Assembly: GCA_027064165.1 (NCBI GenBank)
Contig: JAMOQE010000023.1
Coordinates: 1 to 57,578, forward strand
Direction: 5' to 3'
DNA from: Thermodesulfatator sp.
GTDB lineage: Bacteria; Desulfobacterota; Thermodesulfobacteria; Thermodesulfobacteriales; Thermodesulfobacteriaceae
Length of the DNA stretch: 57,578 nt
Shown here: piece by piece, positions 41,332 to 45,151 of the stretch
Layout: each line of letters opens with the position of its first letter
How positions within the stretch are numbered: the stretch's first letter is position 1
The notes under the pieces: model-generated
What the model was told of the DNA's origin: nothing
The model's database searches: none
The model's input: only the letters and a program-made list of their open reading frames with translations
Made by a program: the position numbers and the translations under genes

Positions 41332-41385
41332 TCCTCCCTTAGCCGATTTCGAGTCGGCCCCCTTCGTCCACTCGGGCACTCCTCC
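41293..41385 (-). tRNA. tRNA-Ser (anticodon CGA)
   Basis: Class II tRNA with acceptor GGAGGAG/CTCCTCC and discriminator G. The anticodon stem GCCGA/TCGGC encloses loop CTCGAAA (anticodon CGA). The long variable arm is a GGGAGGA...TCCTCCC hairpin, and the T-arm contains GGTTCGAATCC. CCA is not encoded. Its 5' base is also the last base of the stop codon of the preceding - strand gene; a T run follows on the 3' side. Confidence 0.96.
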
Positions 41386-42257
41386 TAAATCATTATACTC
41401 AGCTCATAAGACCATACATAAGCTATGCCCTTCTCCTTTAAAAAGGCCTCCATCTTGGGATGGAAGTCATAAGCTACCAAAACAGGAAAATATGTTAAGC
41501 CTTCTTTTTCTGCTATCTTTTTAGCATACTTTTCAAATCGCTGTATTTCTCTTTTTGAAAACCTGGTCTTACACTCGCCCAAAATAAGCACCCGCTCCCC
41601 ATTCTTTTTGCCATAGCCAAAAAGATTTATCTGAATTTCTTTTTTGCCCACAGATACATACCTTCTTATAAGTCTTCCTTCAACTTCTATTCCAAATCTT
41701 TCCTTTAAAATCCTCGGCAGGGAAACATACGCCCTGTCCTCAAGCACATAACCCACCGTATTTGAAAGCCCTTCAAGTCTCTCTTCAACAAGCCTCATTC
41801 TTTTATTAAGACAGGCTACCTCTTCTTCAGTCTTCTTCTGGGCCTCCGCAAGCTCATTAACCCTCTCTTCAGTCTTCCTCTGGGCCTCCGCAAGCTCATT
41901 AACCCTCTCTTCAGTCTTCTTCTGAGCCTCCGCAAGCTCATTAACCCTCTCTTCAGTCTTCCTCTGGGCCTCCGCAAGAGATCTCACTATCTCCTTTAAC
42001 TCTTTCACCTCTTCTTCAGTCTTCTTCTGAGCCTCCGCAAGCTCATTAACCCTCTCTTCAGTCTTCCTCTGGGCCTCCGCAAGCTCATTAACAGTTTTAG
42101 CAAGTCTTTTTAAAATCTCTTTTATCTCTTTAAATTCATCCTTTGTTACACTCTCCTCCCTTTGTCTTTCAATCTCTTCTATAAGACTGAGCAATACTTC
42201 ACGCAAAGAAGGTTCTATATTCTGAAGTTTTCTTATAAATCTCGCACTAAGCCTCAT
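41385..42257 (-). CDS. Coiled-coil 14-residue-repeat protein with PD-(D/E)XK nuclease-like domain
   Basis: 290 aa. The N-terminal helical region is followed by a 91-residue array of NELAEAQ-R/K-KTEE-R/E-V units, predicted to be a long coiled coil. The C-terminal domain (about 185-290) resembles the DUF3782-type PD-(D/E)XK nuclease fold: EGRLIRRYV, EIQINLFG, LILGECKTR. The ExK pair is present in ECK. The usual upstream aspartate is replaced by asparagine (QINLFG), so catalysis is uncertain. The gene has a consensus promoter 8 bases before the ATG, no ribosome site, and ends on the first base of tRNA-Ser. Confidence 0.7.
   Translation of the reverse strand: MRLSARFIRKLQNIEPSLREVLLSLIEEIERQREESVTKDEFKEIKEILKRLAKTVNELAEAQRKTEERVNELAEAQKKTEEEVKELKEIVRSLAEAQRKTEERVNELAEAQKKTEERVNELAEAQRKTEERVNELAEAQKKTEEEVACLNKRMRLVEERLEGLSNTVGYVLEDRAYVSLPRILKERFGIEVEGRLIRRYVSVGKKEIQINLFGYGKKNGERVLILGECKTRFSKREIQRFEKYAKKIAEKEGLTYFPVLVAYDFHPKMEAFLKEKGIAYVWSYELSIMI
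41817..42089 (-). repeat. 42-base tandem repeats (14-residue coiled-coil units)
   Basis: Six units; five are 14 residues and one has a 7-residue insertion (KELKEIV). Units alternate QRKTEE and QKKTEE, and the DNA shows the same alternation, suggesting an 84-base higher-order unit. Near-identity at silent sites suggests recent duplication or conversion. Confidence 0.9.
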
Positions 42258-42316: not shown

Positions 42317-42784
42317 TTAGTGTCTTTTCTGAAGAAAAAATTTCTTTAGAAGTCCTGCTGCTTCCTTCTGAAAAAGACCAGACCTTACCTTTATCCTGTG
42401 ATTAAATGTTTTATAATTAAGAAGATTAAGCACACTCCCGCAGGCACCTGTTTTGGGATCAGAAGCGGCAAAGATTACTTCCTCAACCCTTGCAAGCACC
42501 ATTGCATAGGCACACATAGCACAGGGCTCAAGAGTAACATAAATCCTGCATCCAATAAGTCTGTAATTTCCAAGAGCTTTTGCTGCCTCTCTCAAAGCCA
42601 GGATTTCCGCATGGGCTGTGGGATCAAGGAGCTGAATCATCCTGTTTCTACCCCTACCTATCACCTCTCCCTCAGGAGAAACCACCACTGCTCCCACAGG
42701 CACTTCATCTTCTTCATAGGCCTTTTTTGCTTCCTCAAGAGCAAGCCTCATAAATTCGCAATCTTTTTCACTAAAACCATGCAT
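42317..42784 (-). CDS. tadA: tRNA adenosine(34) deaminase
   Basis: Converts the wobble adenosine of tRNA-Arg(ACG) to inosine. The zinc-dependent deaminase motifs are HAEILALREA (catalytic glutamate) and PCAMCAYAMVLARV (zinc cysteines). EVPVGAVVV and NYRLIGCRIYVTLEPC are typical. The ATG at 42784 gives 155 aa; a GTG three codons upstream is an alternative. It overlaps the end of the IspH-fusion gene, so it is probably translated from the same message. Confidence 0.94.
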   Translation of the reverse strand: MHGFSEKDCEFMRLALEEAKKAYEEDEVPVGAVVVSPEGEVIGRGRNRMIQLLDPTAHAEILALREAAKALGNYRLIGCRIYVTLEPCAMCAYAMVLARVEEVIFAASDPKTGACGSVLNLLNYKTFNHRIKVRSGLFQKEAAGLLKKFFLQKRH

Positions 42785-44405
42785 ATGCCACACTCAACAG
42801 AAAAAATAAAAAAGGAGGGACAAGGGCGAGGTTTTCCAGATAAATAATCTGCCCAAGGGGGCGTTTTCTCAAAAATTGAAAAAGAAGATAGGAAACCAGC
42901 CATAACCCAAGCATCCCTGCAAACAAAAATGGTTTCTTATAAAAGAATAAAGCCATTCCTATGCCCAGGAAAACAAAAATTTTAAGAAGTTTCATAAACC
43001 CTCTTTCTTCAAAATTAAAAATAGAAATAAAAAAATCCTGAGGTAAAAAACCATCTGTCTGAAAATATACTATTTCAAAATAGAGCTTAACAAACAAAAG
43101 CAAAACAAAGGCCTCCAGAAAAATAAAAGTAAAATTAGCATTCCAGAAAGGATAAAGATAAAGGATAAGGCCTATAAAAAAAAGAGGCTCCACCAAAAAG
43201 CTCAAAGGTTTTCCTTTTAAAAACTCTGCTAAAAAGAAAATAGCTATGGCAAGACTTATAATTCTGGGATTAAAAAGAATACCCGCAACAAGAGAAAATA
43301 ATGCAGAAATTATTATCAAAAATATAACGAGCTTTTTGTGTTTTTGTATAACTCTGCCTTTTATGGGATAATAATATGCAAATTTTTTAATAGTGCGGAG
43401 GTTTTGAAAATTATAAAGAAATAAAAGAAAAAAGAAGGCAAAAGGAAGTATCCAAAAGACTTTTTGCATTTTAATAGAAAGAAAATTCAAAAAGCCAGCG
43501 AGTATAAAAGAAAAAACAAGAGATTGAAGAAAGCCAAGAAAAGAAAAAGCCTTTAAAGCTCTATAAAAAGGCAGAGTACTTTTAAGCCTGTCCACCACTT
43601 CGTTTATGAGCCAGTTAGGAGTTGAAGCACCGGCAGTAACTCCCACACTGGATATCCCTTTTAGCTCATTCAAATCTATATCTTCGGGAGTCTCAGCAAA
43701 AATGGTTTTTAGTCCTTCTTCCCGTGCTATTTTGGCAAGCCTTTGAGTATTTGCACTAAATCTCCCTCCTATCACTACAATGGCCTCACATTCTTTAGAA
43801 AGCCGCCTTACCTCTGCCTGCCTTATGTGAGTGGCATTGCAGATGGTATTTATTACCTTAACTTCGGGAAATCTTGCTTTTGCTTCATCTGCAATTTTTT
43901 TAAAAACCTGTGGATCCTGAGTGGTCTGGGAAAGAACCACCCAGCTTTTATGAGGGGGCAGGTGCTTTACTTCTGCCGGACTTCCCACCACATAGCCTTT
44001 CCCTTTACAATACCCCAGAATTCCTTTTACTTCTGCGTGATTTTTATCTCCCACAATAAGCACTGCTTTCCCTTCTTTTGCGGCCTTTCTGGCAAGTGCC
44101 TGTACCTTAAGCACCCTGGGACAGGTGCCATCTATAACCCGATGCCTCCTGGCAAGCTTTTCTTTCTCTTCTGGAGGTACTCCATGTGCCCTTATCACAC
44201 AGCTTCCTGAAGGCACCTCTTCTTCTGGATCCTTCAAAATCTTTACTCCCAGCTTCTCAAGAAGCCTCAAAGTCTGGGGATTGTGAATAAGTGGCCCATA
44301 GGTATAAATAGGCTTAACTCCCTTCCCTATGGCAGAAAGCACAAGGTTTACAGCCCTTCTTACCCCCATGCAAAAACCAGCCTTTTTGGCAATCCTTACT
44401 TTCAT
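42771..44405 (-). CDS. ispH: IspH (HMBPP reductase) fused to a polytopic membrane domain
   Basis: Residues 1-285 are a complete 4-hydroxy-3-methylbut-2-enyl diphosphate reductase, the last step of the MEP isoprenoid pathway. Cluster cysteines are in AGFCMGVRR, DGTCPRV and TICNATHIRQ. Substrate residues are in LIHNPQ, RAHGVP, NHAEVKG, SQTTQ and TAGASTPNW. Residues about 290-544 add eight or so membrane helices, which ordinary IspH lacks (normal length about 290-320). The segment YNFQNLRTIKKFAYYYPIKGR between helices loosely recalls UbiA prenyltransferase loops, without the aspartate motifs. The ATG overlaps the radC stop by four bases. Confidence 0.9.
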   Translation of the reverse strand: MKVRIAKKAGFCMGVRRAVNLVLSAIGKGVKPIYTYGPLIHNPQTLRLLEKLGVKILKDPEEEVPSGSCVIRAHGVPPEEKEKLARRHRVIDGTCPRVLKVQALARKAAKEGKAVLIVGDKNHAEVKGILGYCKGKGYVVGSPAEVKHLPPHKSWVVLSQTTQDPQVFKKIADEAKARFPEVKVINTICNATHIRQAEVRRLSKECEAIVVIGGRFSANTQRLAKIAREEGLKTIFAETPEDIDLNELKGISSVGVTAGASTPNWLINEVVDRLKSTLPFYRALKAFSFLGFLQSLVFSFILAGFLNFLSIKMQKVFWILPFAFFFLLFLYNFQNLRTIKKFAYYYPIKGRVIQKHKKLVIFLIIISALFSLVAGILFNPRIISLAIAIFFLAEFLKGKPLSFLVEPLFFIGLILYLYPFWNANFTFIFLEAFVLLLFVKLYFEIVYFQTDGFLPQDFFISIFNFEERGFMKLLKIFVFLGIGMALFFYKKPFLFAGMLGLWLVSYLLFQFLRKRPLGQIIYLENLALVPPFLFFLLSVAYAWF

Positions 44406-45151
44406 AGTTTGCTCTCAACCTCCTTAATTAGCCTTTCAATATCTCCCTCTTCAGCCATACTATAATAGCCTTCCTCTCCAATAATTAAATGATCAAGCAC
44501 CTTAAAACCGAGAAGCTTCCCTGCAAGAATAAGCCTTTTTGTGAGTTTTAAATCTGCAACAGAGGGATTTGGTTTCCCGGAAGGATGATTGTGGGCAAAA
44601 ATCAGTGCATAGGCTTTGTATTTTACAGCCCTTGCAAAGATTTCTCTTGGATAAACTGCACTTTCATTTATTGTCCCTGCAAATAACTCTTCAACTTCTA
44701 TCACCCTATTATGAGTGTCTAAAAAGATAACCACAAACACTTCTCTTGCACTATTTTTAAAACGATAAAGAAGATAGTTATAAACTTCTTCAGGAGACCT
44801 GAGAATGTCTTTTTCTTTAACACGGGTTCTAAGATATCTACGAGCTACCTCCTGAACCACTTTTAGTGGCAAAATACCTGCTTCTCCCAGTCCTTTAACC
44901 TTAAGCAGCTCCTCCACCGGGGCATCAATCACGAAATCTATTCTACCTCCAAAGGTCTTAAGTAGCTCTCTGGCAATGCCCCTTGTGTCTCTTCTGGGGA
45001 TGCCAAAAAATAAAAGAAGCTCCAGCAGATCCTCTTCTGAGAAACTCTGAGGGCCTTCTTTCCAGAATCTTTCTCTTACCCTTGCCCTGTGCCCTTTGGC
45101 CTTGTTTTCAAATTTTTGGAGTCTTTTTAAAGCCTTCTCAAAGGAGGACAT
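44402..45151 (-). CDS. radC: RadC-family JAB/MPN domain protein
   Basis: The N-terminal helix-hairpin-helix region (FFGIPRRDTRGIA, EELLKVKGLGEA) is followed by a C-terminal JAB1/MPN-like metalloprotein domain. Metal residues are in AHNHPSGKPNPSVADL and the upstream catalytic glutamate is in TINESAVYPRE. It is 249 aa. The family is named for DNA repair, but its biochemical role is unresolved. It lies three bases after lptC and overlaps ispH by four bases in one - strand operon. Confidence 0.93.
   Translation of the reverse strand: MSSFEKALKRLQKFENKAKGHRARVRERFWKEGPQSFSEEDLLELLLFFGIPRRDTRGIARELLKTFGGRIDFVIDAPVEELLKVKGLGEAGILPLKVVQEVARRYLRTRVKEKDILRSPEEVYNYLLYRFKNSAREVFVVIFLDTHNRVIEVEELFAGTINESAVYPREIFARAVKYKAYALIFAHNHPSGKPNPSVADLKLTKRLILAGKLLGFKVLDHLIIGEEGYYSMAEEGDIERLIKEVESKL

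Follow-up and report, generated by a model that had tools for sequence, protein, structure and literature searches.

IspH (4-hydroxy-3-methylbut-2-enyl diphosphate reductase, LytB) catalyses the final step of isoprenoid-precursor synthesis in bacteria; it is an essential and usually soluble protein that requires low-potential electrons and is an antibacterial target. The UbiA enzymes bind Mg and diphosphate through two aspartate motifs (N...D...D and D...D); their usual donors are long-chain, and the C5 products of IspH are not a typical donor. A fusion of the two has been known since 2015, when Rao et al. described 47 IspH-UbiA proteins (PT_UbiA_5), which they termed Rosetta-stone proteins, from sulfate reducers including Thermodesulfatator and Desulfobacca (PMC4746011). 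These authors reported two DXXXD repeats in the fused UbiA domain and suggested membrane localisation and product hand-over, but the full-length fusion could not be expressed (PMC4746011). Two other systems are comparable in part. In the IspH-RPS1 fusions a foreign domain also extends the C terminus of IspH in anaerobes, but there it consists of soluble RNA-binding S1 repeats, whereas the domain considered here is a membrane domain. UBIAD1 is a UbiA-fold protein that acts as a GGPP sensor while bound to HMG-CoA reductase (PMC9579336).

We analysed a stretch of 57,578 nucleotides from Thermodesulfatator sp., referred to here as the window, which encodes a protein with a UbiA-like domain in frame at the C terminus of IspH (Table 1). 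The gene is a single uninterrupted frame of 544 codons with no internal stop, and a genome-wide search found it to be the only IspH match in this genome. The coordinates given for it in a first-pass annotation were correct, as was the statement that the frame runs on into an overlap with the tadA-like gene.

Table 1. Positions in the window of the fusion gene, its two neighbours and the parts of the encoded protein
Feature	Position	Strand	Basis or remark
ispH::ubiA-like fusion gene, 544 aa	42771..44405	(-)	ATG at 44405, stop 42771-42773
tadA-like deaminase gene	42317..42793	(-)	Fusion-gene stop lies inside the tadA ORF; overlap of 23 bases
radC-like gene, directly upstream of the fusion gene	44402..45151	(-)	4-base overlap
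IspH domain, residues 1-275	43581..44405	(-)	PF02401, TIGR00216
Putative degenerate UbiA-fold membrane domain, residues ~279-544, nine predicted helices	42774..43571	(-)	hhalign, AlphaFold, Foldseek
Motif I remnant and following loop, residues ~334-356 (LYNFQNLRTIKKFAYYYPIKG...)	43338..43406	(-)	Alignment; N...D...D absent
Motif II remnant, residues 444-459 (EIVYFQTDGFLPQDFF)	43029..43076	(-)	Alignment; only D451 remains
Lineage-conserved predicted cytosolic loop 8-9, residues 515-528 (RPLGQIIYLENLAL)	42822..42863	(-)	Alignment

The tadA and radC genes flank the fusion gene through most of the order, and beyond it the neighbours vary (plsY, an lpxL-like gene, dus, rpsB and others). The neighbourhood comparison found no conserved functional neighbour across distant members, the neighbours being mutually unrelated. 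Because radC and tadA are conserved only inside the order and the neighbours differ elsewhere, the gene neighbourhood gives no hint of function. The same region of the window also encodes a 290-aa protein (41385-42257, minus strand) whose middle part is made of near-identical 14-residue coiled-coil repeats (RVNELAEAQKKTEE) and whose C-terminal domain, following the repeats, has weak similarity to DUF3782; the number of repeats may differ among strains.

The IspH part is a complete enzyme domain. PF02401 (IspH/LytB) matches residues 2-274 over 267/267 profile positions with an E value of 4.9e-90, and the cluster cysteines C12, C95 and C189 are invariant among the aligned relatives, as are the active-site residues E125, T162, S217 and N219, of which E125 and T162 are the equivalents of E126 and T167. 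A full-length LYTB domain, three cluster cysteines and the E/T active-site pair identify the protein as an IspH (LytB) reductase. The enzyme had earlier been described as complete by residue 285, and complete it is; its end lies about ten residues before that point because the TIGR00216 match stops at 275, next to the end of the PF02401 match at 274.

A frame of this kind could in principle be two genes run together by a frameshift or by faulty assembly. Among 60 relatives searched, all complete copies of the gene in the genus and family were fused frames of 542-552 aa; in two genus members it was cut at a contig end, with the tail on another contig. Because the stop-free fused frame recurs in many independent genomes, including four one-contig genomes of the family (G005, G010, G013 and G018), the fusion is not an artefact, and we rejected the error explanation, whose probability is negligible. 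The claim of a true fusion shared with relatives was thus upheld at the level of genus, family, order and phylum.

The fusion is also much more widespread than reported, as far as the literature searched shows. A search of the phylum with a profile of the tail gave matches in 154 of 395 sampled genomes and in 106 of 245 genera. Among the matches listed, every one uncut by a contig end belongs to a frame exceeding 550 aa, long enough for an IspH fusion, and no convincing free-standing tail domain was seen among the phylum matches; the one short-frame match inspected, in G308, runs off its contig. A scan of named genomes gave 80 loci with 73 complete fusions, those of Thermodesulfobacterium and Caldimicrobium being nearest to the window. 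Besides the genus, family and order of the window and many other Thermodesulfobacteriota families, fusions are also seen in bins that carry the name Nitrospirota (Thermodesulfovibrio with its relatives) or Planctomycetota (the anammox Candidatus Anammoxibacter). The loci L128, L129, L135, L147, L154 and L162 are the fusions found in these Planctomycetota and Nitrospirota bins, outside the sulfate reducers, to which such proteins had been described as restricted. In comparison with the fusions of Rao et al., those described here share the domain order, broadly the same bacteria, the UbiA fold and the presence of a separate UbiA/MenA in the genome, and differ in also having members in these two sets of bins.

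In a tree of the IspH part, most fused proteins cluster separately from most plain IspHs. The plain IspH L041 adjoins a fused Desulfocarbo protein, with moderate support and long branches, and this position suggests that L041 may have lost its tail secondarily. Another plain IspH, L194 (G050 contig 27, 1350-5177), lies between cytidylate-kinase-like and ribosomal-S1-like genes on the same strand; judged by eye from the translations, the order of these three separate genes matches that of the domains in CMK-IspH-RPS1 fusions known from other bacteria.

The tail following IspH is hydrophobic. It had been annotated as 255 residues with eight membrane helices; the membrane helices were borne out, and the length is rather about 265 residues and the number of helices in the AlphaFold model nine. 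By itself the tail has no match among Pfam, NCBIfam or PDB sequences, and PF01040 (UbiA) matches neither the window tail nor any of 17 tails of its lineage, whereas it matches all 11 fused tails at the order and phylum levels (best E 5.8e-16). The link is made by profile-profile comparison: with hhalign, the tails of the window lineage match those of the UbiA-bearing relatives at an E value of 5.5e-9, and the sister genera are linked to the same relatives at 7e-31.

The AlphaFold model of the whole protein, built with 48 sequences, has a mean pLDDT of 92.8 and a pTM of 0.87. In Foldseek searches its IspH part matches 3dnf (E 5e-21) and its tail matches the UbiA-fold structures 6m31, 7bpu, 4tq3, 4od5 and 4od4 with probability 1.0 and E values of 0.01-0.2; 6m31 and 7bpu are archaeal DGGGP synthase. 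TM scores by target length are 0.50-0.65 overall (0.65 for 4od4, 0.59 for 4tq3 and 0.51 for 7bpu). This support for a nine-helix UbiA fold is not independent of homology, because the homologues used for the model are themselves UbiA-like. The model of a Desulfobacca-type relative gives the same matches with stronger E values (2e-5 to 9e-4). Profiles and models together place the tail in the UbiA fold, with descent from the UbiA prenyltransferases, consistent with the UbiA-like character proposed at first.

It is in the active site that the tail departs from the UbiA prenyltransferases (PF01040; MqnP/MenA, DGGGP synthase, chlorophyll synthase). With these it shares the nine-helix fold, and its fused relatives score to PF01040 and have a second motif of the D.EGD...G..TLP type; in contrast, the window tail has no Pfam match, lacks motif I, half of motif II and loop 4-5, and is fused to IspH. 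The aspartate-poor character noticed in the first-pass annotation is thus real, D451 alone being left in motif II, and neither the N...D...D nor the D...D metal/diphosphate motif is intact in the tail. The same holds throughout the window lineage (Thermodesulfobacterium/Caldimicrobium), where one of the four aspartates remains. The alignment shows loop 4-5, which joins helices 4 and 5, to be deleted there as well; in relatives these roughly 18 residues contain a conserved stretch of the type Y..K...LK-IPG-K.

We scored the motifs in 117 distinct fused proteins, 19 from the window lineage, 8 from its sister group and 90 from the rest. The full set was found in only four (0/19, 0/8 and 4/90 respectively), all from one genus (the L036 type: L036, L060, L061 and L062). 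A sample of free-standing UbiAs from these relatives and from the window's genome served as the control, and in these the set was complete in 30 of 30. The losses differ by lineage: many Desulfobacterales have NN..G...D, Desulfobacca-type proteins have NH..D with A..GD, and the window's order has NR..D...L. With a complete set in just 4 of the 117 proteins, the statement of two DXXXD repeats fails for most of the fused proteins sampled; it fails for all 19 of the window lineage, and nearly all sampled members are motif-incomplete. That the aspartate motifs are rarely complete across the IspH-UbiA family is new, as far as the literature searched shows.

By these alignments the tail of the window lineage is a strongly degenerate UbiA that has lost nearly all catalytic residues, and without the Mg-diphosphate aspartates and loop 4-5 it would be unable to carry out the UbiA reaction. 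Within the literature searched, active-site loss in a fused UbiA domain had not been described, and we found no paper on UbiA pseudoenzymes. Under the published Rosetta-stone view of Rao et al., the tail would still be catalytically active as a prenyltransferase, with an atypical active site and with the IspH of the same chain as its supplier. The two DXXXD repeats reported in 2015 (PMC4746011) favour this, as do the four motif-complete proteins of one genus and the distant fused relatives in which motif II is largely preserved (D.QGD...GKETLP) along with some motif I aspartates. We consider it improbable nonetheless, given the single aspartate and deleted loop 4-5 of the window lineage, the complete motifs of the free-standing UbiAs and the mismatch between the C5 products of IspH and the usual long-chain donor. 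Channelling to a prenyltransferase reaction, as had been proposed earlier, is not supported for the window protein because the aspartate motifs and the conserved cytosolic loop are gone. These losses also weaken the case for prenyl-diphosphate sensing, the other role raised in the first-pass annotation.

The genome contains one other UbiA, a separate and motif-complete protein closest to the UbiA/MqnP group, so that the fused domain is not required for prenylating quinones. For this reason a role of the tail as menaquinone prenyltransferase was rejected.

With nearly all catalytic residues lost, the tail probably holds IspH at the membrane. The reading we favour, and consider probable, is that a dead UbiA domain has been retained to tether the only IspH of the cell to the membrane, or to act as its scaffold there. 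Enzyme and C-terminal domain form a single polypeptide, and in the window lineage this domain, nine helices derived from a UbiA, would no longer catalyse the UbiA reaction. Serving as an integral membrane tether or scaffold, it would hold the active site of IspH at the cytosolic surface of the membrane, which is where prenyl-chain and quinone enzymes would draw on its C5 products. The cytosolic orientation is predicted from UbiA topology and from loop 2-3, the most positively charged of the loops, as expected of a cytosolic loop. The anchoring of IspH at the membrane, suggested at the outset, is plausible.

A different use of the membrane would be to place IspH beside a membrane electron donor and so aid reduction of its [4Fe-4S] cluster. 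IspH does require low-potential electrons, and the carriers of the fusion are anaerobes (PMC4746011), but the tail has no visible redox motif and no conserved redox neighbour, and we regard such a role as very improbable.

Although degenerate, the tail is under purifying selection. Using the Nei-Gojobori method on genus-member pairs with measurable dS (one near-identical pair being uninformative), dN/dS of the tail came to 0.17-0.21; in the same genomes the IspH part had about 0.07-0.08 and the canonical UbiA 0.09-0.30. That the window-lineage tail appears to be a degenerate UbiA under purifying selection is likewise new within the literature searched. Most of the residues conserved in this lineage map to two loops predicted to be cytosolic, 6-7 (Q449, D451 and DGFLP) and 8-9 (RPLGQI-YLE and E524), which would lie on the same side of the membrane as IspH, and both D451, which is invariant or nearly so, and E524 are conserved through most of the whole family. 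Against a bare anchor there is a hint in these same residues, together with nine helices, which are more than an anchor needs; the conserved loops may mean that a ligand is bound there or that a particular contact is made.

Such a ligand would fit a tail that binds a prenyl diphosphate, a polyprenyl phosphate or a quinone without turnover and controls IspH, much like a UBIAD1 covalently linked to its target. The cytosolic-loop residues conserved despite the loss of the catalytic motifs are consistent with this, and so are the description of UBIAD1 as a GGPP sensor on HMG-CoA reductase (PMC9579336) and the Foldseek match of the Desulfobacca-type model to human UBIAD1 in the HMGCR complex (8djk, E 0.02). 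In both systems a UbiA-fold protein is attached to an isoprenoid-supply reductase at the membrane. However, UBIAD1 is an active enzyme on a separate chain and its target belongs to the mevalonate rather than the MEP pathway, so the parallel is one of fold and pathway position only, and the window lineage has lost the Mg-diphosphate aspartates together with loop 4-5. We consider a sensor in the window lineage possible but unlikely. Across the family as a whole the membrane domain may, for the most part, be a pseudo-prenyltransferase whose role is to sense a prenyl lipid from further down the pathway and to control IspH, a generalisation we hold to be a little less likely again; if true, it would be a one-chain bacterial counterpart of UBIAD1 and HMG-CoA reductase, arisen independently in the MEP pathway.

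With the tether as the favoured reading, these proteins represent a membrane-bound form of IspH kept across a phylum, with an attached domain that appears to have shed its catalytic site. This goes against the published view of both domains as sequential enzymes, at least for the window lineage. The aspartate-complete L036 type and the aspartate-poor Thermodesulfobacteriaceae provide two natural sets of variants for comparison. Taken together, the findings suggest that what selection maintains is where isoprenoid supply takes place, or how it is regulated, and not a second reaction.
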